DNA of 21,544 bases from a virus. The stretch spans positions 1 through 21,544 of IMG/VR virus record IMGVR_UViG_3300046028_008083; one strand, 5' to 3'. Under the pieces are notes generated by a model. The model was not told the DNA's origin, ran no database searches, and worked only from the letters and a program-made list of their open reading frames with translations. A program made the translations under genes and the position numbers. Below are positions 1,033-19,096 of this stretch, one piece after another; positions within the stretch are counted from its first letter, which is position 1; each line of letters opens with the position of its first letter.

Positions 1033-1230
1033 GTGCCTGCTCACATCATCTCTGTCGACGCGCACTCGCCTGCGTCCGAGCAGCTCGCCGCCTCGGTGCG
1101 CAAGCTCGAGACCCGCGAGGAGATCGTGTCGGTCGTCCAGACCGGCGACTGCTTCGTCGTGGTGACCCGCCGCAAGCCGGGCCGACCGGCGAAGGAGACC
1201 CGGGTGACCGCCCAGGCGGAAACCCGATGA
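1033..1230 (+). CDS. Small unknown protein with basic GRP-type tail
   Basis: This 65-residue protein is not recognised. The GTG start at 1033 is chosen because an AAAGGAG ribosome binding site lies at 1022-1028, five bases upstream; the same frame is open further upstream but there it overlaps the capsid gene. The N-terminal part (MPAHIISVDAHSP) and the middle (SVVQTGDCFVVVTRR) look like a small beta-rich fold. The C-terminal part contains RRKPGRPAKE, a basic stretch with a GRP core that resembles an AT-hook. The stop overlaps the start of the next glycosyltransferase (ATGA at 1227), so it is the lead gene of the translationally coupled sugar cassette. In other phages small genes directly after the capsid gene can encode decoration or head proteins, but nothing here proves that role. 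Confidence 0.75.
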   Translation: MPAHIISVDAHSPASEQLAASVRKLETREEIVSVVQTGDCFVVVTRRKPGRPAKETRVTAQAETR

Positions 1231-2390
1231 AGATCGCCTGGATGTCGAACGCCCCGTGGGCGCCGACGGGCTACGGGCAGCAGACCGCCCAGGTCCTGCC
1301 CCGCCTGGTCGCCGACGGCCATGACGTGGCGGTCATCGCGAACTACGGCCTGCAGGGTGGGGTGCGCGACTGGGAGGGGATCCGGGTCTACCCCTCGGGG
1401 TCGAACTGGTCGAACGACGTGATCGCTGCACATGCGACCCACTGGTTCGACGGGGAGCCCGGCCTGCTCGTCACGCTCTACGACGTGTGGACCCTCGAGC
1501 ATCCCGCTTACCGAGAGATGACGATGGCCGGCTGGGTGCCGATCGACCATGCGCCGGCGCCGCGGCTGGTGGCCCGCCATTTCGCCGAGACCGGTTCGGT
1601 GCCGATCGCGATGAGCGACTTCGGTCGCCGTCAGCTCGCCGCCGACGGCCTCGACCCGCTGTACGTCCCGCACGGGATCGACACGACGGTGTTCGCCCCG
1701 GTGCCCGACGCGAAGGCCCTGTTCGGCATCCCCGAGGACGTGTTCCTCGTCGGGATGGTCTCGACCAACAACTCGCTCGAGCCGTGCCGCAAGGCGTACC
1801 CCGAGGCGTTGATGGCGTTCCGCCGTCTGCTGCATTCGCATCCGGACGCCTTGTTGTACATCCATGCGGAGAACCGTGGTGCGCTCGGCGGCCTCGACCT
1901 GGTGGCGTTGGCGACCGGGGTGGGGATCCCGACCGAGAACCTCCTGTTCGTCGACGGGTACCGGTACCGCAACGGGCTGATCGGCCAGGCCGAGCTCGCG
2001 AACCTGTACTCGGCGTTCGACGTCCTGTTGTTCCCGAGCATGGGTGAAGGGTTCGGGATCCCGACGGTCGAGGCGCAAGCCTGCGGCACGCCGGTGATCG
2101 TCACGAACTTCTCCGCCCAGGCCGAGCTCGTCGGGCCCGGCTACGCGACCGCCTGGCAGCCCCGGTGGGATCCCGCCCAGCTCGCCTACTGGGCGACGCC
2201 GCTGATCGACGACATCGCCGAGGCGCTTGTTCATGCGGCCGAGCATCGTGACCACCTGGTCGAGATCGGCCCGGCGTGCCGCGAGTTCGCCCTCGGCTAC
2301 GACGCCGACCATGTGTACACCACCTACTGGCAGCCGGCGCTCGAGACGCTCGAGGGGTTGTTGCCGTCGACGGCGCCGATCCGGCTGTGA
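1227..2390 (+). CDS. GT4-type (GT-B fold) glycosyltransferase
   Basis: This 387-residue protein is a retaining glycosyltransferase of the GT4 type, expected to move a sugar from a nucleotide-sugar donor onto an acceptor. The N-terminal Rossmann half starts MKIAWMSNAPWAPTGYGQQT, including the glycine-rich acceptor-side loop. The linker shows VPHGIDTTVF, typical of the family just before the donor-binding half. The donor half holds the E-x7-E motif EGFGIPTVE with E274 and E282, followed by ACGTPVIVTN. There is no signal peptide or membrane segment, so it should act in the cytoplasm. The ATG overlaps the preceding stop (ATGA) and the stop overlaps the next start (GTGA), so it is coupled to both neighbours. 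Its place between capsid and connector genes suggests virion protein glycosylation; the acceptor and the sugar cannot be read from the sequence. Confidence 0.9.
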   Translation: MKIAWMSNAPWAPTGYGQQTAQVLPRLVADGHDVAVIANYGLQGGVRDWEGIRVYPSGSNWSNDVIAAHATHWFDGEPGLLVTLYDVWTLEHPAYREMTMAGWVPIDHAPAPRLVARHFAETGSVPIAMSDFGRRQLAADGLDPLYVPHGIDTTVFAPVPDAKALFGIPEDVFLVGMVSTNNSLEPCRKAYPEALMAFRRLLHSHPDALLYIHAENRGALGGLDLVALATGVGIPTENLLFVDGYRYRNGLIGQAELANLYSAFDVLLFPSMGEGFGIPTVEAQACGTPVIVTNFSAQAELVGPGYATAWQPRWDPAQLAYWATPLIDDIAEALVHAAEHRDHLVEIGPACREFALGYDADHVYTTYWQPALETLEGLLPSTAPIRL

Positions 2391-3061
2391 ACATCACCGC
2401 CGCGGTCCTGTGCCACAACCTCCACGCCCACGACCGCCTCGACCTGTTCTGGCAGACGTGGGAGTCGCTGCACGTCGAGGGGGTGCGGGTCATCCCGGTC
2501 GACAACGGGTCGACCGACTCGACCGACGAGCTGGTCGCCGACCTCGGCGGTTACGTCTCCAAGGACCGGCTGACAACCTGCGGGCACGGCACGAACCTGT
2601 GTGCGCGTGTCGCGATCGGAACCGACGCAGACCTGTGCGTCCTCTCCGATGACGACATGCGATGGCTGCCCGGCTGGGCCGAGCAGCTCCGCGCCTGGTG
2701 GTCCGCCGCGCCCGACGACGTGCTGTTGACCGGCTGCCATGTGGAGCCGGTGTTCTCGTGGAACGAGATCCACGGCCGGGTCGTCTGCGGCGGTGTCCCG
2801 GGTCTGATCCGGGCTTCGACCGGGGCGGCGTCATGGTCGTTCCGTGCCGGTGACTGGCCCCGCATCGGGCCGGTCCCAGATCGCATCCAAGGCTGGGGTG
2901 ACGTGCCCACCTGCCAGCGCATCACCGACGCCGGCTACCGGGTCGCGCAGCTGAACCTCGCCGAGCATGCGGGGCACGGGCGCAGCACCTGGGGGAACCG
3001 GACTGTGGAGATGCACGGCTGGGACATCGACCCGGCCCTGGCCTGCCTGGAGGCTCCATGA
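2387..3061 (+). CDS. GT2-like (GT-A fold) glycosyltransferase
   Basis: This 224-residue protein looks like a family 2 glycosyltransferase. The N-terminal half shows VIPVDNGSTDSTDELV, the usual donor-binding strand and loop, and an aspartate triplet D88-D90 in CVLSDDDMRWLPGW, which fits the metal- and nucleotide-sugar-binding DXD site. Further on there is a GxxG-rich middle (VCGGVPGLIRASTGAASW) and WGDVPTCQRITDAGYRV, which resembles the acceptor-side region where an ED/WD motif sits. The GTG start at 2387 overlaps the upstream stop (GTGA) and the stop overlaps the ATG of the SDR gene. It is shorter than many GT2 enzymes and has no membrane segment, so a soluble cytoplasmic enzyme acting on a protein or a short glycan is the best guess. 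Confidence 0.82.
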   Translation: MNITAAVLCHNLHAHDRLDLFWQTWESLHVEGVRVIPVDNGSTDSTDELVADLGGYVSKDRLTTCGHGTNLCARVAIGTDADLCVLSDDDMRWLPGWAEQLRAWWSAAPDDVLLTGCHVEPVFSWNEIHGRVVCGGVPGLIRASTGAASWSFRAGDWPRIGPVPDRIQGWGDVPTCQRITDAGYRVAQLNLAEHAGHGRSTWGNRTVEMHGWDIDPALACLEAP

Positions 3062-3966
3062 ACGTGCTCGTGACCGGCGGTTCGGGGTTCATCGGCTCCC
3101 ATGTGGTCGCCGAGCTCCTCGCCCGGGGGATGACCCCGGTGATCTTCGACCGGCATGTGCGCCGCCCCCCGCAGGGCTGCGAGCTGATCCTCGGCGACGT
3201 TCGCGACCCGGTCGCGGTGACCGAGGCGGTCGCCCACGCCGACGGGGTGATCCATCTCGCCGCGGTACTCGGCACCCAGGAGACGATCGCGAACCCGCGT
3301 CCCGCCGCCGAGACGAACGTCCTCGGCAGCCTCAACGTGTTCGAGGCGGTCGCCCAGTACCGGGTCCCGGCCGCGCTCGCCGCGGTGGGGAACCACTGGA
3401 TGGACAACGGCTACTCGATCTCGAAGACGTGCGCCGAACGCTTCGCGAACATGTACAACGGCGAGCGGGACACGAGCATCGCGGTGGTGCGGGCGTTGAA
3501 CGCCTACGGGCCCGGCCAGTCGGTCGCCGCCCCCTACGGCCATTCGAAGGTCCGCAAGATCATGCCGTCGTTCGTGTGCCGGGCGTTGGCCGGCGACCCG
3601 ATCGAGGTCTACGGCGACGGCTCCCAGCAGATGGACATGATCCATGTCGGCGATGTCGCCTGGTGTTTCGTCGAGGCGATGCTCGTCGGGCCTCGGGCCG
3701 ACGGGCGGGTCTACGAGGCCGGGACCGGTTTCGGCCCCGAGGTGCGGGACATCGCCCAGGTCGTGATCGACACGGTCGGCCAGGGCGAGATCGTGCACCT
3801 GCCGATGCGGCCCGGCGAACCGGACCATTCGGTGGTCGTCGCCGACACGTCGACGCTGACGCCGATCTGGCCGCAGGACCGCCGCTTCATCGACCTGGTG
3901 AGCGGCGTCGAGGAGACCGTCGCCTGGTACCGCCAGGCTGAGGGTGTCCACTGGTCGGCTCGGTGA
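3058..3966 (+). CDS. SDR-type NAD-dependent nucleotide-sugar epimerase/dehydratase
   Basis: This 302-residue enzyme belongs to the extended short-chain dehydrogenase/reductase group. It probably converts a nucleotide-activated sugar (4-epimerase or 4,6-dehydratase type chemistry) into the donor used by the neighbouring transferases. The N-terminus holds the NAD-binding TGGSGFIG motif (G7, G10, G13), then GDVRD and VIHLAAV, both typical of the family. The YxxxK pair is Y119 and K123 in GYSISK. The segment before it reads AAVGNHWMDN, so the Ser/Thr normally found upstream of the YxxxK in GalE/RmlB-like enzymes is not in its usual place. This may mark a particular subgroup. NAYGPGQ and the later VYGDGSQQMDMIHVGDVA segment support the assignment. 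The ATG overlaps the previous stop (ATGA) and the end overlaps the next GTG (GTGA). Confidence 0.9.
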   Translation: MNVLVTGGSGFIGSHVVAELLARGMTPVIFDRHVRRPPQGCELILGDVRDPVAVTEAVAHADGVIHLAAVLGTQETIANPRPAAETNVLGSLNVFEAVAQYRVPAALAAVGNHWMDNGYSISKTCAERFANMYNGERDTSIAVVRALNAYGPGQSVAAPYGHSKVRKIMPSFVCRALAGDPIEVYGDGSQQMDMIHVGDVAWCFVEAMLVGPRADGRVYEAGTGFGPEVRDIAQVVIDTVGQGEIVHLPMRPGEPDHSVVVADTSTLTPIWPQDRRFIDLVSGVEETVAWYRQAEGVHWSAR

Positions 3967-4643
3967 TCCCCAACCTCGTGCACCGCATCTGGTTCGGGCC
4001 CGCCCCGATGCGGCGCGAGCTGGTCGAGTTCGGCCGCACCTGGGAACGCCACGGCTACGAGCTGAAGCTGTGGACCGAGGCGAACCTGCCTCGGCTCCGC
4101 AACCAGTGGGTCTACGACGAGATCGGCCGCCGGGGCGTGAACACCGGCGGCGGAGTCCCCGAGCTGGGCGTGTGGGTGCAACGCGCCGACGTCGTCGCCT
4201 ACGAGCTGATCTACGAGCACGGCGGCATCTACGCGAACTGCGACATGGAATGCCTCCGCCCGATCCCCCTCGAGGGGATCTCGGCGTTCGCCGGCTACGA
4301 GGACGGCGAGTTCCTGTCGAATGCCCTCATGGGCTGCGAGACGGGACATCCGTTCTTCGGTGCGGTGATCGACGAGCTCGAGCCCCGCTACCGGGAGATG
4401 CCGGGCGAACCGATGAACGGTGTGACCGGCCCGCACCTGTTGACCTGGGTGCACCGCACGAACCCCGGTCTCCTGCACGTCTTCCCGAAGGCGGCGTTCA
4501 ACCCGGTGCTCTACGACATCGAGTCGATGCGCACCGAATGGGACGACCACCCCGACTCGTACTGCGTCCACCACTGGGGTCACACCCGGGACCGGTGGAC
4601 CGCCGCACCGTCCGACGCGTTCCTCGATGCGCGCTACCGCTGA
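3963..4643 (+). CDS. GT32-like glycosyltransferase with altered DXD motif
   Basis: This 226-residue protein resembles the glycosyltransferase sugar-binding region family with DXD motif (GT32/capsular-polysaccharide type). It starts MIPNLVHRIWFGPAPM, the usual IPK-xIHxxW opening, and continues with LWTEANLP and then RADVVAYELIYEHGGIYANC. In the family the GGIY is followed by a DxD metal site; here the residues at these positions are N92, C93 and D94, so the first aspartate is replaced by asparagine. The later FLSNALMGCETGHPFF and GPHLLT segments also fit. A C-terminal HHWGHTRDRW region carries the His/Trp residues seen at the end of this family. The GTG start overlaps the SDR stop (GTGA). Activity may be retained with one aspartate, but it could be lowered. 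Acceptor and donor are unknown. Confidence 0.82.
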   Translation: MIPNLVHRIWFGPAPMRRELVEFGRTWERHGYELKLWTEANLPRLRNQWVYDEIGRRGVNTGGGVPELGVWVQRADVVAYELIYEHGGIYANCDMECLRPIPLEGISAFAGYEDGEFLSNALMGCETGHPFFGAVIDELEPRYREMPGEPMNGVTGPHLLTWVHRTNPGLLHVFPKAAFNPVLYDIESMRTEWDDHPDSYCVHHWGHTRDRWTAAPSDAFLDARYR

Positions 4644-5202
4644 CGTCACCCTGCTGACGGCGTCGATGCCGGAACGGCACCGGATGCTCGGCGAGCTGTG
4701 CGCCTCGGTCGCCGCCCAAGACGTCGCCCCCCGCCAGCATCTCATCGCGGTCGACTACCCCGAGGAGGGGTTCGTCGCCACGATCAACCGGCTCGCCCGC
4801 CAGGTGACGACCTCCTGGCTGATGGTCCTGCCCGACGACGACCTCCTCGACCGTTGGCATCTGTCGACGATCGTGGCGGCCGCCGGCTGGTACGACGTCG
4901 CCTACACCTGGTGCCGTTCCGAGGGTCGTGACGGCTGGACGCCGAACAGTGCGTTCGACGCCGAGACGTTGCGGCGAACGAACTTCATCCCCGGGGGTGC
5001 GGCGCTGATCCGCACCGACCTGTGGCAGCGCCTCGGCGGGTACCGCAAGACCCCGGACTGGGACGGCGTCGAGGACTGGGACTTCTGGATCCGGGCCCTC
5101 GACGCCGGCGCCGAGTTCGTCTGCGAGCCGACAGTGACGTGGACCTACCGGTTCCACGGCCAGAACCTGTCCCTCGGGCAGCTCCCCTACCACCGTAAGT
5201 GA
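4627..5202 (+). CDS. GT2-like glycosyltransferase
   Basis: This 191-residue protein is a compact family 2 glycosyltransferase. The N-terminal half has VTLLTASMPERHRMLGELCAS-type opening residues, then SWLMVLPDDDLLD with the aspartate triplet D70-D72 at the DXD position. The acceptor half contains IPGGAALIRTDLWQRLGGY and VEDWDFWIRALDAG, the ED-type catalytic base region seen in GT2 enzymes (E149, D150, D152). The ATG at 4627 gives a 17-base overlap with the preceding gene, so translation is again coupled. It ends 7 bases before the head-tail connector gene, which keeps the sugar cassette inside the structural operon. No membrane segment is visible. It is the last of the five contiguous sugar genes, and its sugar and acceptor are not known. 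Confidence 0.85.
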   Translation: MRATADVTLLTASMPERHRMLGELCASVAAQDVAPRQHLIAVDYPEEGFVATINRLARQVTTSWLMVLPDDDLLDRWHLSTIVAAAGWYDVAYTWCRSEGRDGWTPNSAFDAETLRRTNFIPGGAALIRTDLWQRLGGYRKTPDWDGVEDWDFWIRALDAGAEFVCEPTVTWTYRFHGQNLSLGQLPYHRK

Positions 5203-5209
5203 GGACCCT

Positions 5210-5836
5210 GTGGCCGACACGCTCGACATCGTGAGCCTCACCGAGGCGAAGGCCGCGGTCAACATCGACGCGTCGAACACGAGCTACGACACCGAGATCG
5301 CCGCGTACATCACCGGCGTGTCCCGCCGGATCGACACGCTCTGCGGCCCGGTGGTGCGCCGCACGATCAGCGCCGAGACCCACTGGTGTGGGGCGGCACC
5401 GTTCGTCGACGTGCGCCACGTCCCGATCTCGAGCGTGTCGTCAGTGGTCGAGTACGACCAGGAGGGCACGGCCACGACCCTGACTGCGGAGACGGTGTCG
5501 ACGAAGCCGACCGACGGCTACCTGATCGACGTCACCCGGGAGGTCCCGACCCGGATCTACCGGCGTTCCCAGGGTGGCCCCTATACGTTCCCCGCCGCGG
5601 GCGCGGTCGTGATCACCTATGGCGCCGGCCGTTACGCGAACACCGCCGCGGTCGACGAGGTGTTCAAGCGGGGCGCGGCGATCATGTTCTCACACCTGTG
5701 GCGCCGCGAGCAGGGGGTCGGCTCGACGACGTTCGGGCCGCTCGAGGACACCGGGCTGGGCACCCCGACGTTCGCGGTGCCCCGTGCGGTCGTCGAGCTC
5801 CTCGCCGAGCATCTCCGCCCGGCGGGTGTCGCCTGA
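5210..5836 (+). CDS. Head-tail connector protein (gp6/gp15-like)
   Basis: This 208-residue protein resembles the phage head-tail connector (HK97 gp6 / SPP1 gp15-like) that forms a ring under the portal. The N-terminal helical part reads SLTEAKAAVNIDASNTSYDT followed by EIAAYITGVSRRIDTLCGPVV, the usual helical pair of this family. A beta-rich middle follows, with VDVRHVPISSVSSVV, then an ITYGAGR segment and a helical C-terminal part (VFKRGAAIMFSHLWRREQG). The GTG start is preceded by a GAGG site at 5201-5204, partly formed by the end of the upstream glycosyltransferase gene. In most related phages this gene follows the capsid gene closely; here about 4.3 kb of sugar genes separate the two. Confidence 0.87.
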   Translation: MADTLDIVSLTEAKAAVNIDASNTSYDTEIAAYITGVSRRIDTLCGPVVRRTISAETHWCGAAPFVDVRHVPISSVSSVVEYDQEGTATTLTAETVSTKPTDGYLIDVTREVPTRIYRRSQGGPYTFPAAGAVVITYGAGRYANTAAVDEVFKRGAAIMFSHLWRREQGVGSTTFGPLEDTGLGTPTFAVPRAVVELLAEHLRPAGVA

Positions 5837-6240
5837 TGGCGGCAACCAGCCTCGTCAACGCGAAAGCCGACCTGTACACGCGGCTCTGCGCGAACACGAC
5901 CCAGGGCACACCGGCGGCGACGCTGACGACGATCTCCCGGGTCTACGACCATGAGCCGAACGCCGGCGAGATCGCGAAGCCGACGTCGATCACGCTGATG
6001 ACCGCGTCGATCGACCCCGAGTACTTCCGGTTCCAGCTGCGGATCTACGCCGCCGACGCCACCCAGGACATCACCCAGGACCGCCTCGACCTCGCAATCG
6101 ACCAGGTCGACACGATCCTCGGCCGCAACGCCAACGACCCGTACTTCGGGCCTTCCCAGTGGGCGGTCGACTACGTCGACGAGATCGGCGCCTGGCTCGC
6201 CGTCTCGGAGGTCCTCGTCGGCCGGGAGGATTACTTCTAG
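5836..6240 (+). CDS. Probable tail terminator / neck protein
   Basis: This 134-residue protein sits where tail terminator or head-tail joining proteins usually lie, directly after the connector. It starts with MAATSLVNAKADLYTRLCA, has a central LQIR-like strand (FRFQLRIYAADATQD), a helix LDLAIDQVDTILG, and an acidic C-terminal end. This alternation of a helix, a small beta-sheet and a helix fits the tail-terminator (gpU-like) fold, but that is a judgement from order and size rather than a clear motif. The ATG shares one base with the preceding stop (TGATG), and its stop is directly followed by the GTG of the CgeB-like glycosyltransferase. Confidence 0.7.
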   Translation: MAATSLVNAKADLYTRLCANTTQGTPAATLTTISRVYDHEPNAGEIAKPTSITLMTASIDPEYFRFQLRIYAADATQDITQDRLDLAIDQVDTILGRNANDPYFGPSQWAVDYVDEIGAWLAVSEVLVGREDYF

Positions 6241-7248
6241 GTGCGGGTCCTGATGGTCCGCCCCGGCCCCCACTTCTCGGTCCTCGACGTGCATCTCGGC
6301 TGGTTCCGGGCGTTCCAAGAGTTGGGCGTCAACGTCGAAGAGTTCCGCCTGGACGACCGGCTGGACTTCTTCACGCAGGCGATGCTCGAGCAGGACGGCG
6401 AGCTGCGTCGCGTGTTCAACGACGAGGCCGGGATCCGCCTCGCCGCCAACGGCCTCAAAGAAGCGTGTTACGACTTCTGGCCCGACGTGGTGATCGTCAC
6501 CTCGGGGTTCTTCATCCCGCCGGACGTGCTGCGGGTGGTGCGCTCCCGACGGCATCGGCTCGTCGCCCTGTTCACCGAGTCCCCTTACGAGGACGACCGG
6601 CAGGTCGAACGGGCCGACCTGTTCGACGTGGTCCTCCTGAACGACCCGACGAACCTCCAGGCGTTCCGGGAACGCCAGTGGCGCTCCTACTACATGCCCC
6701 ACGCCTACGACCCGGGCCTGCACCGGCCGGGCCCGGGTCTGCCCGAATGGGCGTGCGACCTGGCGTTCGTCGGCACCGGCTACCCGTCCCGCCAGGAGTT
6801 CCTCGCCGCCTGCGATCTCGACGGCCTGGACGTGCGCCTCGGCGGCAACTGGCCGCAGGCCGGCGCCTGGTTCACCGACCGGCTCGTCCACCCCGACGGC
6901 TACTGCCTCGACAACACCGAGACGGTGCAGCTCTACCAGTCGGCTCGGGCCGGCCTGAACCTGTACCGCAAGGAAGGCTCAGCCGGGGCTGACGGCTGGG
7001 CGATGGGGCCCCGTGAGGTCGAGCTCGCCGCGACGGGTTGTTTCTTCCTGCGGGAGCCCCGACCGGAATCGGATCGGGTGCTGTCGATGCTCCCCACGTT
7101 CTCCGAGCCTGGCGAGGTGCGTCCGCTCCTCGACTGGTGGCTCACGCACGACGAGCAGCGCGCCGACACGGCCGCCGCTGCCCGTGCGGCGGTCGCCGAC
7201 CGGACGTTCACTGCGAACGCCCGCCGGCTGCTCGAACTGATCTCGTAA
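6241..7248 (+). CDS. CgeB-like glycosyltransferase
   Basis: This 335-residue protein resembles the CgeB/spore-maturation type glycosyltransferases (GT-B fold, related to the Glyco_trans_1 group). The N-terminal part starts MRVLMVRPGPHFSVLDVHLG. The middle shows DVVLLNDPTNLQAFRER and YYMPHAYDPGLH, then the beginning of the second domain, CDLAFVGTGYPSRQEFL. The C-terminal donor-binding part carries ARAGLNLYRKEGS, WAMGPREVELAATGCFFL with the conserved Arg/Glu pair, and LPTFSEPGEV, all typical of the family. It starts directly after the upstream stop codon (TAG then GTG) and ends 33 bases before the tail tube gene, so it is transcribed with tail genes. Its separation from the other five sugar genes hints at a tail-directed role. 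Confidence 0.87.
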   Translation: MRVLMVRPGPHFSVLDVHLGWFRAFQELGVNVEEFRLDDRLDFFTQAMLEQDGELRRVFNDEAGIRLAANGLKEACYDFWPDVVIVTSGFFIPPDVLRVVRSRRHRLVALFTESPYEDDRQVERADLFDVVLLNDPTNLQAFRERQWRSYYMPHAYDPGLHRPGPGLPEWACDLAFVGTGYPSRQEFLAACDLDGLDVRLGGNWPQAGAWFTDRLVHPDGYCLDNTETVQLYQSARAGLNLYRKEGSAGADGWAMGPREVELAATGCFFLREPRPESDRVLSMLPTFSEPGEVRPLLDWWLTHDEQRADTAAAARAAVADRTFTANARRLLELIS

Positions 7249-7281: not shown

Positions 7282-7680
7282 ATGGCACGTATCCACGGGC
7301 GCTCCGGGCGCCTCTACGCCGGCATCGCAAGCTCGGGTACCGCCGAGCCCATCGCGTTCCTGAACAGCTGGTCGGTCGACTTCTCGAGCGACGACGTGGA
7401 GGTCACCAGCTTCGGGGACACCTCGAAGGTGTACGTCTCGGGTCTGCCCGACGTGGCCGGCACGTTCGCCGGGTTCTACGACGACGCGACCGCCCAGATG
7501 TACACCGCTGCGGTCGACGGCGTCGCCCGCAAGTTCTACCTGTACCCCTCGACCGGGAACACCGGCCAGTACTGGTTCGGGACTGCGACGTTCGACTTCT
7601 CGATCTCGACCGGGGTCGGCGACGCGGTGACCGTGTCCGGCAACTTCCGGGGCGCCGGCACGGTCTCGAAGGTCGGCTGA
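7282..7680 (+). CDS. Major tail tube protein
   Basis: This 132-residue protein is the probable tail tube subunit, which stacks into the tube between head and tail tip. The size, the position between neck genes and chaperone, and the strongly beta-rich sequence fit: MARIHGRSGRLYAGI, then FLNSWSVDFSSDDVEVTSFG (a typical tail tube segment in which the charged strand is followed by TSFGD), GTFAGFYDD, and a closing FDFSISTGVGDAVTVSGNFR strand pair. An AGGAGGG site at 7267-7273 precedes the ATG, the strongest ribosome binding site in this part, as expected for a highly expressed protein. It is rich in Ser and Thr, so it has many possible O-glycosylation positions next to a glycosyltransferase gene. 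Confidence 0.85.
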   Translation: MARIHGRSGRLYAGIASSGTAEPIAFLNSWSVDFSSDDVEVTSFGDTSKVYVSGLPDVAGTFAGFYDDATAQMYTAAVDGVARKFYLYPSTGNTGQYWFGTATFDFSISTGVGDAVTVSGNFRGAGTVSKVG

Positions 7681-8603: not shown

Positions 8604-10454
8604 ATGGCGATCACCCGAGAGAAGCTCGAGCTCCTCATCACCGGGGACGCGCGCGACGCGGTCGCAGCGATGCGTCAGGCATCGGGTGCGGCCACCGGCC
8701 TGGACGACTCGGTCGGCGCGTCGGCGACGAAGATGAGCAAGCTCGGCGCGGTCGCCGGCGCCGCCGGTTCGGCGATCCAGCAGAACATCGGCATGATCGC
8801 CACCACGGCGGTCGCCGCGATGACCGCCGCCGCGGTCGCCTCGATCCGAGAGTTCACCCAGCTGGCCGACAAGGTGCGGGACTTCTCGCGCGTCTCGGGT
8901 CTAAGCGCCGGGCAGTCGTCGCGTCTCGTCGCGATCTTCGACGATCTGAAGATCTCTCAGGAGGCGGCGAACAACGGGTTCCTGCGCCTGAACCGGGGGA
9001 TCTCGTCGGGGACCGTCAACCTCCAGGAGTACGGGGCTGAGGCGGTCCGCAACCGGGACGGCAACCTCAACATCTACAAGACGCTTCTGTCGGTCGCCGA
9101 CGCCTACACGTCGACGTCGGATTCGGGTCGTCGAGCGCAGCTGGTGCAGGAGGCGTTCGGGAGGGGTGGCGCGGCGCTGATCCCGATCCTCGAGCAGGGC
9201 CGGGAGGGGATCGAGCGGCTGTACGGGCAGGTGCCCGAGGGGCAGCTGCTGAAGAACGAGGATCTGATCCGGGCGCGCGAGTTCGAGTTGGCGTTGGATG
9301 ACCTGAACGACTCGGTGATGGAGCTCAAGGTCGGTCTCGGCCGCGAGTTGGCCCCTGCGGTGACCGGCGTGGCGAGTGCCGCTGCGGGTCTGATCCGTGC
9401 CGGTGGCGACGCCAAGAGCACGCTCGACAGTTGGGGTGCTGGTGGCACGGTCCTCAATGGAGTCTTGAGAGGCCTTGCTGCCACTGTCACGCTGGGCGCG
9501 TCTGAGGTCTACCTCCAAGTAAAGGCATTCGGCGAGAGCCAGCAGTCTCTCGACCGGTTGACGTCGGCGCAGAAGGCGTACGGCGAAGCCTTGGCGTCAC
9601 TCAAGAAGTTGCAGGACGAAGACAACGCCAGCACCAAGGAGCTGCGAGACGCTAAGGAGGCGCTCGCCAACGCCCGGGAACGGTACGGCAACATCCTCGA
9701 CCGGACGAACGCGAAGCAGCAGACCGAGATCGACAAGCTCGAAGCGACCAAGCAGTCGACCTATGACCTGATGTTGATGAAGATGGGTCTGGAAGGCGCG
9801 CAGATCGCGATGGAGCGCGCCACCACCAATCTCGACAAGGTGATGGGCGACTCCACGGCGACCGACCTGGAGAAGCGCGACGCGACCCTGTCGGCATCGA
9901 CGGCGATCATGAACTACGCCCGGGAGCAGCTCGAGCTGGAAGGCCAGTCGATCGAGACCGAGGCCGGCCAGAAGCGGTTTCGCGACATTCTCGACTACAT
10001 CGCCGGGACGTTGGCACCGGACAACCCGTTGCGGTCGCGTCTGCGCGACTACAAGAACGACCTCGAGGGCATCCCGACAGACGTTCGCACGACGTTCAGT
10101 GTGCGTCTTGACACTCGAGAGATCTACGGCCAGCTCCAGGACATGGGGCTGACCGGCGAGCAGGCCGCCGAGATGATCCGCGCGTCGTACGAGTATCTGA
10201 TGCCGACTCGTTACGAGGGTGCGACGGGTGGGCTGGTGACCCGGCCGACGATGGCGTTGATCGGCGAGGCGGGACCGGAGGCGGTGATCCCGTTGAACCG
10301 GGCGCCGGGCGCGTCGCCGCTCGGTCCGCTGGGTGGCGGGTCGATGTCGATCACGGTGCCGTTGGTGGTCGACGGCCGGGTCCTCGCTGAGGTGACGGCG
10401 TCGGAGTTGAACCGGCCGGGTGGCCCGGTGATCAAGCAGCGGGCGATCGTGTGA
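8604..10454 (+). CDS. Tape measure protein
   Basis: This 616-residue protein sets tail length by spanning the tail tube during assembly. The start (MAITREKLELLITGDARDAV) and the helix with AMRQASGAATGLDDSVGA are typical. A hydrophobic Ala-rich region follows at about residues 47-81 (QQNIGMIATTAVAAMTAAAV), as usual for tape measures that enter the host membrane. The middle is helical and contains a coiled-coil-like stretch at about residues 315-390. The C-terminal end carries ATGGLVTRPTMALIGEAGPE followed by AVIPLNR, a hallmark of the family in actinobacterial phages. Its length predicts a fairly short tail (by the general rule of about 0.15 nm per residue, roughly 90 nm). A GGAGG site at 8591-8595 precedes the ATG, and the stop overlaps the next GTG (GTGA). 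Confidence 0.93.
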   Translation: MAITREKLELLITGDARDAVAAMRQASGAATGLDDSVGASATKMSKLGAVAGAAGSAIQQNIGMIATTAVAAMTAAAVASIREFTQLADKVRDFSRVSGLSAGQSSRLVAIFDDLKISQEAANNGFLRLNRGISSGTVNLQEYGAEAVRNRDGNLNIYKTLLSVADAYTSTSDSGRRAQLVQEAFGRGGAALIPILEQGREGIERLYGQVPEGQLLKNEDLIRAREFELALDDLNDSVMELKVGLGRELAPAVTGVASAAAGLIRAGGDAKSTLDSWGAGGTVLNGVLRGLAATVTLGASEVYLQVKAFGESQQSLDRLTSAQKAYGEALASLKKLQDEDNASTKELRDAKEALANARERYGNILDRTNAKQQTEIDKLEATKQSTYDLMLMKMGLEGAQIAMERATTNLDKVMGDSTATDLEKRDATLSASTAIMNYAREQLELEGQSIETEAGQKRFRDILDYIAGTLAPDNPLRSRLRDYKNDLEGIPTDVRTTFSVRLDTREIYGQLQDMGLTGEQAAEMIRASYEYLMPTRYEGATGGLVTRPTMALIGEAGPEAVIPLNRAPGASPLGPLGGGSMSITVPLVVDGRVLAEVTASELNRPGGPVIKQRAIV

Positions 10455-13400
10455 GCGTCCCGACTCCGATCGTGGAGTGGGCGCCGGCGAAAGGCCCGTA
10501 CGAGACGGTCGACACCTACTACAACCTGGACGGTACGGCGGGGACGTTCATCACGACGCCCGATGCGGCGGCGTGGACGTTTGCGGGTACGTACCGGGTG
10601 ATGATGCGGGTCCGGGCGACCGATTGGACGGCCGCGGCGACGCAGCATCTGGCGACCCATTACGGGGTTTCCGGGGCGTTCGCCTGGCGGTTCTCGGTGA
10701 CGACGGCGGGCGCGTTGCAGTGGTCCCGGTCGACCGACGGGTTGGCGGAGGTGCAGCAGACGTCGTCGGCGCCGTCCTTGTCGAACGGGACGACCTACTG
10801 GCTCGGCGTCGAGTACGTCACCAGCTCGGGGGCGGTGTCGTTCTACAAGGCTGATGACGCGGTGACGATGCCGACAGTGTGGTCCGGCTGGACGTTGGTT
10901 TCGTCGCACACGATGACGTCGGGCACGCCGTACGACTCGGGTTCCCGGCTGGTGTTGGGCGCGACTGATGACGACAAGGGTCGACTGACCGGCCGGGTGT
11001 ACCAGTACGCGCTGTACTCGACGTCGACGTTGCTGGCCTCGTTGGACGCTGATCTCGACGGCTATGTGACGTCGCCGAGCGTGCAGGTGTCGTCGACGGG
11101 TCAGACGTGGACGTTGCAGGGTGCGGCGACGCTGGTCACCGATTGGGTGGACATCAGCGCCTACGTGCAGGAGGGGTCGGTCCAGGTCGGCCGCCAGTAC
11201 GAGGTCGACCGGTTCAACGCCGGGACGGCCTCGTTGACGTTGGTGGCCAGGACCCGCCTGTTCGACCCGGACAACACGGCCGGCACCTATTACGGGCAGC
11301 TGGTGCCGATGCGCCAGTTCCGGATCCGCATGGTTCGTTCGGACACGGTGTACCCGGTGTTCCGAGGCTATGTGACCGACTGGGGGCAGGCGGTCCCATC
11401 GGCGGACCGGGCGATCTTCACGACGGTGCAGCTCGCCGACGCGTTCGCCCTGTTGGACGCCACGTTGGTGCCGTCGGTGTACGAGCAGGCGGTCCTCGCC
11501 AAGGACCCCAAGATCTACTACCGGTTCGACAACGCGAACGCCCTGATCGACAGTTCGGGCGACGATCGCAACGGGGTGTTCACGTCGACCCCGACCCTCG
11601 TCGATGGGCTGTTGACCAACGACGCGTCGCGCGCCTGGTCGCTGACCGGGTCGAACTACGCGTGGGTCCGGGCCGACCTCATCTCGTTGGGTCTGACGCC
11701 GGCGTTCGAGTTCTGGTTGTCGACGACAGCGACGACCGGGGTGATCGCCGACTTCCAGCAGTCAGGCGTCAGCGTGCTGATCATGCTGCGCGCCGGGAAG
11801 CTGCGGTTCTGGGACAGCTCGAGCACGAACTTCTACGAGACGACCGCAGCAATCAACGACGGTGTCGCCCGCCACTGCTATTTCGACACGACGACCGACA
11901 CGTGGCGGATCGACGGGGCGGCCGTGTCGACGACCAGCGGTTCCGAGACGAGCCCCGACGAGCTCGGCGGTCTTGTCCGCACGAACGGGGTCATGACGCT
12001 TGGCAACAACCAGGCGGCGAACTACCCGTTCGTCGGGACCCTCGACGAGTTCACCGGCTACGCCTCCAACGTCGGCGACACCTACGACGAGGGCGCAGCG
12101 CCGCTCGCCGGGCAGACGACCGGGGTGCGGGTCGGTGCGCTCCTCGACCTGCTCGACTGGCCTGCTGCGTTGCGTGACCTCGACGCCGGCGACTCGACCA
12201 TGCAGATCTTCGACGGCGAGGGCCTGTCCATGCTGGATGCGGTCCAGCAGGCGGCCGACACCGAGCTGGGCCAGACCTACGTCGACGCCTACGGGCGGGT
12301 CCATCACCGATCCCGCTCCGCGTTGTGGCGTGATTCCCGGTCGCAGTCGGGGCAGTCGACGTTCGCTGATTCGTATGGTGCGCCGGAGTACGCGAACTTG
12401 ACCGGGGCGTCGGGTGCGTTCGTGTCCGCTCCCGACAACGACGCGTACACGCTGACGAATCTTGAGATCGTCGCTCGGGTACGTCTGGTCGATTGGACCC
12501 CGGCTACACCCCCGATGATCATGAGTCTCTTCAAAGCGGACCCGAACCGGAACTGGCGTCTGTATGTCGCTGCGAGCGGGGCGTTGGTCTTTGAGTACAC
12601 GCCGACGGGCCTTGCTGTTGACATTCGCACACGCTCCTCTTCAGTGCTCGGTGCGACCGATAATGAGACGTACTGGCTGAAAGTAACTTTTGAAAACAAC
12701 GTCGCTGGCTTGAATCGCACTTCGTTCTATTGGGCGGCGGATCAGCAGACCGAACCATCTTCATGGCAGGCGGTCGGCTCGACTACGAGCGGCGCATCGT
12801 TTGCTGGTTTCCCCAACATCGTTTCGACCTTGGAGCTCGGATCTAACGAGAACGGGGTCAACAACCGTCTCAACGGTCGGATCTATTACGCGGCGTTGCG
12901 GAATGGGGTCGGCGGAGCGACGGTCGCAGAGTTCAACCCGTTGCGGGACGCGTCTTTGCCCGCAACGACTGTCGTCTCGCAAACCGGCGAGACATGGACT
13001 GTCAATGGGGCCGCGACCTTGGTTGACACTGCCGATGCGCGTTACGCCGCCGAAGGGTTCTCCCTGACCCGGGACGAGACGCTGCTGCGCAACCCGGTGT
13101 CCGCCTCCCGTCAGGACGGGACGACGATCACCGTGTCGGACAGCGCCGGGATCACCAAGTACGGGCAGCGGGCCTGGGCGGCGCCGACGTCGTACGACTT
13201 GTCGGACAATGTGGTCAACGACCGGGCGACGTTCCTCCTCGACCGGTACAAGGAGCTGACGACCCGGCTCGAGTCGATGACCGTGCATGTGCACAGGGAT
13301 CCGGCCACGTTGACGCCGGTGGTGGGCCGCCGCCAGATCGGCGACCGGGTCGTCGTGAACCGCCGACCGTTGAACACGAGTTCGCGTATCACCTCAAGTG

Positions 13401-13543
13401 TGATTATCGAAGGGGTCGCGCACCGGTTCGCGCCGCGCCGCTGGTCGACGACCTACCGGGCGTCGCCGATCGAGACGACCGTGTTCTTCATCCTCGACGA
13501 TGCGACCTACGGCGTCCTCGACGACGACCGTCTCGCCTACTAG
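10451..13543 (+). CDS. Tail tip/hub protein with three LamG/ConA-like domains
   Basis: This 1030-residue protein probably forms the tail tip and carries the adsorption domains. It alternates between lectin-like and hub-like parts. Residues about 1-229 are a ConA/LamG-like sandwich ending GQTWTLQGAATLV. Residues 230-343 look like distal tail/hub sequence (VDISAYVQEGSVQVGR, RLFDPDNTAGTYYGQLVPMR). Residues 344-540 are a second, different LamG-like domain (DPKIYYRFDN, GTLDEFTGYA). Residues 541-637 return to hub (LLDLLDWPAALRDLDAG). Residues 638-857 are a third LamG-like domain, paralogous to the first, ending GETWTVNGAATLV. Residues 858-1030 are hub-like again (GRRQIGDRVVVNR). The third domain is clearly less GC-rich. 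LamG-type domains bind sugars or proteins, so host recognition is inferred. The GTG overlaps the tape measure stop. Confidence 0.82.
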   Translation: MSVPTPIVEWAPAKGPYETVDTYYNLDGTAGTFITTPDAAAWTFAGTYRVMMRVRATDWTAAATQHLATHYGVSGAFAWRFSVTTAGALQWSRSTDGLAEVQQTSSAPSLSNGTTYWLGVEYVTSSGAVSFYKADDAVTMPTVWSGWTLVSSHTMTSGTPYDSGSRLVLGATDDDKGRLTGRVYQYALYSTSTLLASLDADLDGYVTSPSVQVSSTGQTWTLQGAATLVTDWVDISAYVQEGSVQVGRQYEVDRFNAGTASLTLVARTRLFDPDNTAGTYYGQLVPMRQFRIRMVRSDTVYPVFRGYVTDWGQAVPSADRAIFTTVQLADAFALLDATLVPSVYEQAVLAKDPKIYYRFDNANALIDSSGDDRNGVFTSTPTLVDGLLTNDASRAWSLTGSNYAWVRADLISLGLTPAFEFWLSTTATTGVIADFQQSGVSVLIMLRAGKLRFWDSSSTNFYETTAAINDGVARHCYFDTTTDTWRIDGAAVSTTSGSETSPDELGGLVRTNGVMTLGNNQAANYPFVGTLDEFTGYASNVGDTYDEGAAPLAGQTTGVRVGALLDLLDWPAALRDLDAGDSTMQIFDGEGLSMLDAVQQAADTELGQTYVDAYGRVHHRSRSALWRDSRSQSGQSTFADSYGAPEYANLTGASGAFVSAPDNDAYTLTNLEIVARVRLVDWTPATPPMIMSLFKADPNRNWRLYVAASGALVFEYTPTGLAVDIRTRSSSVLGATDNETYWLKVTFENNVAGLNRTSFYWAADQQTEPSSWQAVGSTTSGASFAGFPNIVSTLELGSNENGVNNRLNGRIYYAALRNGVGGATVAEFNPLRDASLPATTVVSQTGETWTVNGAATLVDTADARYAAEGFSLTRDETLLRNPVSASRQDGTTITVSDSAGITKYGQRAWAAPTSYDLSDNVVNDRATFLLDRYKELTTRLESMTVHVHRDPATLTPVVGRRQIGDRVVVNRRPLNTSSRITSSVIIEGVAHRFAPRRWSTTYRASPIETTVFFILDDATYGVLDDDRLAY
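12362..13021 (+). other. Lower-GC third lectin-like domain, paralogous to the first
   Basis: This part of the tail tip gene encodes residues 638-857. Between about 12500 and 12900 the base composition falls well below that of the flanking sequence, with many A/T third positions (for example AAAGTAACTTTTGAAAAC at 12679-12696). At protein level it copies the layout of residues 1-229: the YxNLxGxxGxFxxxPD opening, a DWTxA strand, a TYWLxVxxxN strand, SWxxVxS, RLxGRxYxAL, and the same ending GxTWTxxGAATLV. The nucleotide sequences are not alike, so this is an old duplication or an exchanged homologue rather than a recent copy. Confidence 0.75.
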
Positions 13544-18708: not shown

Positions 18709-19053
18709 TCAGTTCCAGCTCGGGTCTTCGTTGGCAAAAACAGGCCCCTGACCTGGGCTTATTGTCTTACATCCCAGGGTGACTCCTCCCTGTTCAGAGG
18801 TGTAAACGTCGCCGCGAGCATCCTGGTACTGGTCGGCGATCACATTGAGGTCGAGGAGCCACCGGCAGCTCGTCGCCTGGCTGTACGCCATCAGCTGCGA
18901 GACGGTGGGCTCCCGATGGCCCCTCAGCCAGGCCGTGATGGTCTGGGCTGAACAACCGACCCTCTGGGCGATCTCACGCTGCTGAAGGCCGGATTCCTGC
19001 ATGGCTGCGGTGAGGAGCAGTCGCAGAGTCGGCTTGAAACGGGCTGAGCTCAC
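18709..19053 (-). CDS. XRE-type HTH repressor (lysogeny regulator candidate)
   Basis: This 114-residue protein carries an XRE/Cro-CI-type helix-turn-helix: LQQREIAQRVGCSAQTITAW followed by LRGHREPTVSQLMAYSQAT, at about residues 22-60. The GTG at 19053 is chosen because an AAAGGAGGGG site lies directly upstream on the minus strand, while the frame's earlier ATG at 19086 would overlap the operator palindrome. The C-terminal part after residue 75 is not a recognised peptidase; there is no Ser-Lys cleavage domain as in LexA/CI proteins, so induction must work another way. Its position beside a divergent early operon and upstream of the integrase gene makes it the likely lysogeny repressor. Operator-like repeats lie in front of it. 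Confidence 0.82.
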   Translation of the reverse strand: MSSARFKPTLRLLLTAAMQESGLQQREIAQRVGCSAQTITAWLRGHREPTVSQLMAYSQATSCRWLLDLNVIADQYQDARGDVYTSEQGGVTLGCKTISPGQGPVFANEDPSWN

Positions 19054-19075
19054 AGCCCCTCCTTTGTGCTCCTGG

Positions 19076-19096
19076 TGTCGGACCACTTGTCCGACA
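19076..19096. promoter_or_regulatory. Perfect inverted repeat, operator candidate
   Basis: TGTCGGAC (19076-19083) and GTCCGACA (19089-19096) form a perfect 8-bp inverted repeat with a 5-base centre. It lies 23 bases upstream of the repressor start and near the expected start point of the leftward promoter, so repressor binding there would allow self-control. Dyad symmetry of this size fits a dimeric HTH protein. Confidence 0.65.

Follow-up and report, generated by a model that had tools for sequence, protein, structure and literature searches.

Sugar-enzyme genes fixed beside the capsid and tail-tube genes of an uncultivated phage point to glycosylation of the virion

Sugar-enzyme genes of the virion operon

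The stretch of DNA analysed here, in the following called the window, is the IMG/VR virus record IMGVR_UViG_3300046028_008083 (positions 1 to 21,544; 21,544 bases), with a G+C content of 63–73% per kilobase. On its plus strand, an operon of virion genes encodes five sugar enzymes between the major capsid protein and the head-tail connector and a sixth one next to the tail-tube gene. A prediction made earlier from the sequence alone had pointed out the first five. Their position was confirmed with exact coordinates, and the family calls (GT4, GT2, SDR, GT32-like and GT2) were upheld by Pfam and PHROG profiles and for the last enzyme also by its predicted fold. The sixth enzyme, a CgeB-like glycosyltransferase (GT), was not part of that prediction. 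The genes follow each other in the order listed and are succeeded by the tape measure and further tail genes.

3–908, + strand: HK97-fold major capsid protein, 5' end missing at the contig edge (PF05065, 4e-57; phrog_10, 2e-50)
1033–1230, + strand: open reading frame (ORF) of 65 amino acids, conserved in relatives, 4-bp overlap with the GT4 start
1227–2390, + strand: GT4 (GT-B) glycosyltransferase (PF13692, 2e-13; phrog_2170, 1e-32)
2387–3061, + strand: GT2 glycosyltransferase a, GT2a (PF00535, 1.1e-6)
3058–3966, + strand: extended short-chain dehydrogenase/reductase (SDR), nucleotide-sugar epimerase/dehydratase superfamily (PF01370, 6e-39; phrog_540, 3e-53)
3963–4643, + strand: GT32-like glycosyltransferase, Gly_transf_sug (PF04488, 1.2e-5, above cut-off)
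4627–5202, + strand: small GT2 glycosyltransferase b, GT2b (phrog_14775 glycosyltransferase, 7e-12; predicted GT2/GT-A fold)
5210–5836, + strand: head-tail adaptor (phrog_442, 5e-15)
5836–6240, + strand: small protein in tail-completion position (position and synteny only)
6241–7248, + strand: CgeB-like GT-B glycosyltransferase, the sixth sugar enzyme (PF13524, Glyco_trans_1_2, 3e-14, 53.6 bits, above cut-off)
7282–7680, + strand: major tail (tube) protein (phrog_1407, 3e-12)

The start/stop overlaps that had been noted within the cassette comprise three of 4 bp (GTGA between GT4 and GT2a, ATGA between GT2a and SDR, GTGA between SDR and GT32) and one of 17 bp between GT32 and GT2b, which itself ends 7 bp before the head-tail adaptor. 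The gene of the CgeB-like GT begins directly after the preceding stop codon and is separated from the tail-tube gene by 33 bp. The left edge of the window falls inside the HK97-type capsid gene, of which relative L002 carries a full-length copy; in the close relative L007, terminase, portal and head protease all lie 5' of the capsid gene. The 65-residue ORF is 69% identical in L003, 42% in L004 and 38% in L007 and had zero matches in PHROG and NCBIfam.

The GT4 enzyme has invariant glutamates E274 and E282, consistent with the E-x7-E motif of this family, and GT2a displays a DDD metal motif in the alignment. GT2b is the weakest of the five family calls, as no Pfam model scored above its cut-off. 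Structure prediction, which the original prediction had proposed and which among the five was run for this enzyme, yielded a confident GT2/GT-A fold with a predicted local distance difference test (pLDDT) score of 90.5 and AvpGT, WrtF and SpsA as best PDB matches. In the SDR, the motifs GGSGFIG (GxxGxxG) and Y119-x3-K123 (YxxxK) are invariant in six relatives; every NCBIfam model scored far below its cut-off and no reaction could be assigned. The AlphaFold model of the CgeB-like GT adopts a GT-B fold (pLDDT 91.8). Among PDB structures it most resembles GT4 and other GT-B enzymes, e.g. GlgM, MshA, BshA and PimA, and CgeB-like GTs rank high in a comparison with a viral structure library, whereas a sequence search of the PDB found no relative. 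Membrane segments were looked for in all six sugar enzymes and none was found.

Conservation, linkage and variation of the gene set

The search for the same gene order in other phages, also suggested at the outset, was successful. The five-gene order is intact in the window and in L003, L004/L006, L007 and L017, hence in at least four lineages beyond the window, and in L008 a methyltransferase stands where GT2b would be. L002 and L010 are contigs nearly identical to the window, while the other relatives are about 80% (L003), 60–70% (L004–L007) and about 50% (L008) identical. The order from capsid through tube, including the CgeB-like GT, is retained in the relatives and L017 as far as the contigs extend. 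We determined the ratio of nonsynonymous to synonymous substitutions (dN/dS) by the Nei-Gojobori method for two lineage pairs. The cassette genes gave values of 0.24–0.46 for the window and L003 and of 0.08–0.11 for L004 and L007, both below 0.5, compared to 0.19 and 0.06, respectively, for the capsid gene. Because the genes are open and syntenic down to about 50% protein identity with dN/dS below 0.5, chance is ruled out; together with the conserved order these ratios imply that selection maintains the cassette and that it did not arrive recently as a stray insertion.

Profile scans of IMG/VR found at least 580 stretches with relatives of the GT4 and 418 with relatives of the CgeB-like GT, and the best 80 of each were examined; linkage was counted over non-redundant loci with enough flanking sequence. 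In 63 of 65 loci, the GT4 relatives have a capsid gene at most 1 kb upstream of them. Of the remaining two loci, one belongs to the phage Mae-JY09, whose deposited annotation does show a capsid gene there that is too divergent for the profile. The tube gene follows the CgeB-like GT within 300 nt in 100 of 108 loci and within 1.1 kb in 107. When the search was seeded with the tube protein and thus blind to the GT, 65 of 66 loci had a CgeB-like GT at most 1.2 kb upstream. A search seeded with the capsid protein gave a different picture: GT4 adjoins only the closer capsids, distant ones often have the connector directly behind them, and the presence of GT4 requires four changes on the capsid tree. 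Hence the tube-linked GT belongs to the core genes of its phage group, whereas the capsid-linked set is clade-specific.

The content of the interval between capsid and connector varies from phage to phage among the relatives. Among 102 further proteins of this island we counted 21 GT2, 13 Methyltransf_23, nine hexapeptide transferases, seven Methyltransf_24, six GFO/IDH/MocA, five rhamnosyl O-methyltransferase/CmcI (RMNT_CmcI) and one with an NDP-hexose-type C-methyltransferase C-terminal domain, where a single protein may match several families. Some SDRs of other islands carry the active sites TDEVYG or SSEMFG that are typical of 4,6-dehydratases. Judged by its gene content, such a variable island fits the trace expected of a diversifying glycan and would be difficult to explain by the addition of just one sugar. 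At five other loci (L259, L266, L268, L281 and L283), a canonical SDR with the active site TDEVYG, resembling 4,6-dehydratases, is encoded directly 5' of the CgeB-like GT, which suggests that the tube-linked enzyme of these phages is supplied with a sugar of its own.

Likeness to known systems

Freeman et al. reportedly described virion glycosylation in 2023 in mycobacteriophages such as Che8, with capsid and tail tube as acceptors. The profile of GT2b matches Che8 gp108 with 40.7 bits, whereas the profiles of GT4, GT2a, SDR, GT32 and the CgeB-like GT did not match the Che8 GTs. Che8 gp108 (L330, 16172–17347) is annotated as glycosyltransferase; according to Pfam, it has a GT2 domain with an O-methyltransferase domain behind it. 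Common to Che8 and the window are thus soluble phage-encoded GTs, several of them in tandem, of which one GT2 is related (gp108/GT2b). Sugar O-methyltransferases also occur in both contexts, within gp108 in Che8 and within the island in relatives of the window. However, the Che8 enzymes gp108–110 are encoded at the very 3' end of the genome rather than between capsid and connector, and the window additionally encodes an SDR and, apart from the cassette, a GT tied to the tube gene.

The original prediction had treated so complete a cassette inside a structural operon as out of the ordinary, but the same position is occupied in the deposited genomes of Mae-JY09 and phiPsal1 and in dozens of IMG/VR contigs. 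In the Microcystis phage Mae-JY09 (PP395641), capsid, small ORF, GT4 (40% identical), a GT2b-like gene, SDR, an extra gene and head-tail adaptor follow each other in this order. Its SDR, however, is only 27% identical and has the canonical active site SSSEVYG, and neither a GT32-like nor a CgeB-like gene was recognised in this phage. The Pontimonas phage phiPsal1 (MG835450) has a shorter set at this position, comprising capsid, GT4 (39% identical), methyltransferase, GT2 and neck protein without SDR, GT32-like enzyme or CgeB-like GT. Microbacterium phage Magritte (OR553905) shares with the window an SDR (57% identical, same AVGN active site) and a GT32-like enzyme (35%), which adjoin each other in the window's order (L327, 2393–4008) and are followed by another GT, but there the pair is located 5' of terminase and portal instead of between capsid and connector. 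Magritte's SDR is annotated as UDP-glucose dehydrogenase, which its sequence does not support. GT4-led sets at this position are hence already known from Mae-JY09 and phiPsal1; new are the larger enzyme set, its conservation and the second GT that stays with the tube gene throughout a group of uncultivated phages. Neither the CgeB-like GT (searched by tblastn) nor a tube protein of the window's type had a match in the 50,697 records of isolate phages, and tblastn with GT2a found none either.

Chloroviruses glycosylate their capsid with their own enzymes, and among PDB entries the GT4 profile matches the chlorovirus protein B736L best (3oy2, 4.5e-13), although this is a likeness at the superfamily level only to a protein of an unrelated eukaryotic virus. 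The window is unlike the gtr clusters of serotype-converting phages, in which the flippase GtrA, the membrane-anchored GtrB and an integral-membrane Gtr are encoded near the attachment site. In the interval from capsid to tube, no gene of flippase or lipid-carrier type was recognised, and the six sugar enzymes are encoded far from the integrase.

Proposed function, host and further features

We consider it likely that these enzymes act in the cytoplasm while particles are being produced and attach sugars to proteins of the phage's own virion. As the six enzymes are devoid of membrane segments and no flippase or lipid-carrier gene was recognised, a soluble cytoplasmic acceptor is most likely, and as the GT families are fixed to the capsid and tube genes, the capsid and tube proteins are the best candidates. 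The island co-produced with the capsid (GT4, GT2a, SDR, GT32-like and GT2b) would start and extend a short glycan on the capsid, probably at surface-exposed serine or threonine residues, using host nucleotide sugars of which one is perhaps altered by the SDR. The CgeB-like GT (6241–7248) would modify the adjoining tail-tube protein. The acceptors, the order of action, the sugars and the benefit, be it shielding, stability or adsorption, are what we infer from the genes. We only tentatively propose the more specific two-target arrangement in which the variable capsid island builds a lineage-specific oligosaccharide on the head and the core CgeB-like GT decorates every tail tube.

Several observations weigh against this interpretation. 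Gene neighbourhood is evidence of coupling but could not by itself identify an acceptor. Many relatives of the capsid protein occur without GT4, so that this capsid family does not depend on being modified. Capsid proteins ending in -PT[ST], such as that of the window (...KFLKAPTS), were found in 10 of 14 cases with GT2a and in none of 95 without, yet this distribution reflects only two changes on the capsid tree. The enrichment of serine or threonine within the last four capsid residues (54/59 vs 31/50) can be explained by relatedness equally well as by function, and a C-terminal serine or threonine was rejected as a GT4-specific signature since tails such as GGAS and GATS also occur in capsids without GT4. 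The C-termini of the tube proteins (...AAASxVxKVG) were likewise inspected for an acceptor tail and offered no clear one. On the side of the enzymes, the usual catalytic serine or threonine of the SDR is replaced by V110 in a shortened loop throughout its clade, which includes the isolate phages Magritte (57% identical) and Satis (54%), whereas neighbouring clades, e.g. L106 and L127, retain threonine. The GT32-like enzyme has an invariant N92-x-D94 in place of DxD in six aligned sequences. Because of these two substitutions, some members of the cassette may be altered or inactive.

The enzymes could instead modify the host envelope, i.e. wall polysaccharide or a lipid-linked glycan, and thereby block superinfection or change the cell surface, in which case their place in the late operon would merely reflect timing. 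Phage GTs are established to act in this way in serotype-converting prophages, as is also discussed in passages of PMC10202952, wall and capsule clusters often contain GT4, GT2 and sugar methyltransferases as well, and the phage looks temperate, with integrase and repressor genes arranged end to end. Still, we regard this explanation as unlikely, given that there is no flippase, polymerase, lipid-phosphate GT or membrane segment among the six enzymes, that they are encoded in the virion operon and not beside integrase and repressor, and that the capsid gene and the tube gene are each firmly coupled to a GT family of their own. Glycosylation of a different virion protein such as a tail fibre, minor tail protein or head decoration, with expression timing accounting for the linkage to capsid and tube, seems to us rather improbable. 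The neighbourhood does not name the acceptor and the large tail-module protein g10451 (10451–13543) comes from the same operon, but each GT family tracks one specific neighbour and not the operon at large. Moreover, the known precedent modifies the same two proteins: mycobacteriophage capsids and tail tubes are reportedly modified at their C-termini by phage-encoded GTs (work of Freeman et al. 2023, cited by PMC12619734, PMC11256854 and PMC10877033).

It is very improbable, in our view, that the GTs glycosylate modified bases of the phage DNA to protect it against nucleases. Such a function is known for T-even and other phages. It has also been proposed for the freshwater actinophages E7 and F5 in a passage of PMC10202952. 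However, among the scanned proteins of the window, itself a 21.5-kb genome fragment, none was recognised as an enzyme that hydroxymethylates or otherwise modifies bases, and neither GTs locked to capsid and tube genes nor sugar O-methyltransferases and hexapeptide transferases suggest base modification. Glycosylation of the virion, as the original prediction had put forward, is thus still the best explanation: the place in the virion operon has been kept across lineages and a second GT is fixed at the tube gene, from which capsid and tube appear as the probable acceptors. The further idea of a donor-sugar enzyme serving a multi-sugar glycan held in part. The variable island fits several sugars, but with the usual catalytic residue missing, a role of the SDR in donor-sugar synthesis is unproven. 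Nor is the cassette complete as had been suggested, since no nucleotidylyltransferase was recognised in the window and the cassette therefore relies on nucleotide sugars of the host.

To our knowledge, glycosylated phage particles have been demonstrated only in a few mycobacteriophages. If the two-target arrangement is correct, virion glycosylation would be a standard trait of a large group of environmental phages beyond these. Sugar coats would then be built into many phages of soil and water and diversify rapidly in them, much as O-antigens do in bacteria. A GT4 gene after the capsid gene and a CgeB-like GT gene before the tube gene could serve as simple genomic markers for predicting which virions are glycosylated. 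This would bear on the ecology of phages, on the stability and purification of their particles and on immune recognition.

The phage is taken to be actinobacterial and its host is likely acidimicrobial, although short viral contigs may end up in the wrong bin. A 6.5-kb contig in the metagenome-assembled genome (MAG) G030 is 97.8% identical to the window over 4.1 kb, and G030 shares its class with the Acidimicrobiia MAG from which L172 was obtained. The tube-linked GT is also present in two further Acidimicrobiia MAGs and in a 204-kb contig of Klenkia brasiliensis, a species of which strain DSM 44526 carries a prophage. In total, the prophage search yielded four genomes with the CgeB-like GT in class and order scans and one MAG contig of the window's type in a separate scan.

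Scans of the whole window for tRNA genes and Rfam families gave no match for either. Downstream of the tube gene, the following features were assigned.

8604–10454, + strand: tape measure
10451–13543: large tail-module protein g10451, 1030 aa
17626–18708, − strand: tyrosine integrase
18709–19086, − strand: helix-turn-helix repressor, end to end with the integrase

The protein g10451 looks internally repetitive, as the N-terminal part of its homologs also matches residues ~647–870 with ~33% identity.

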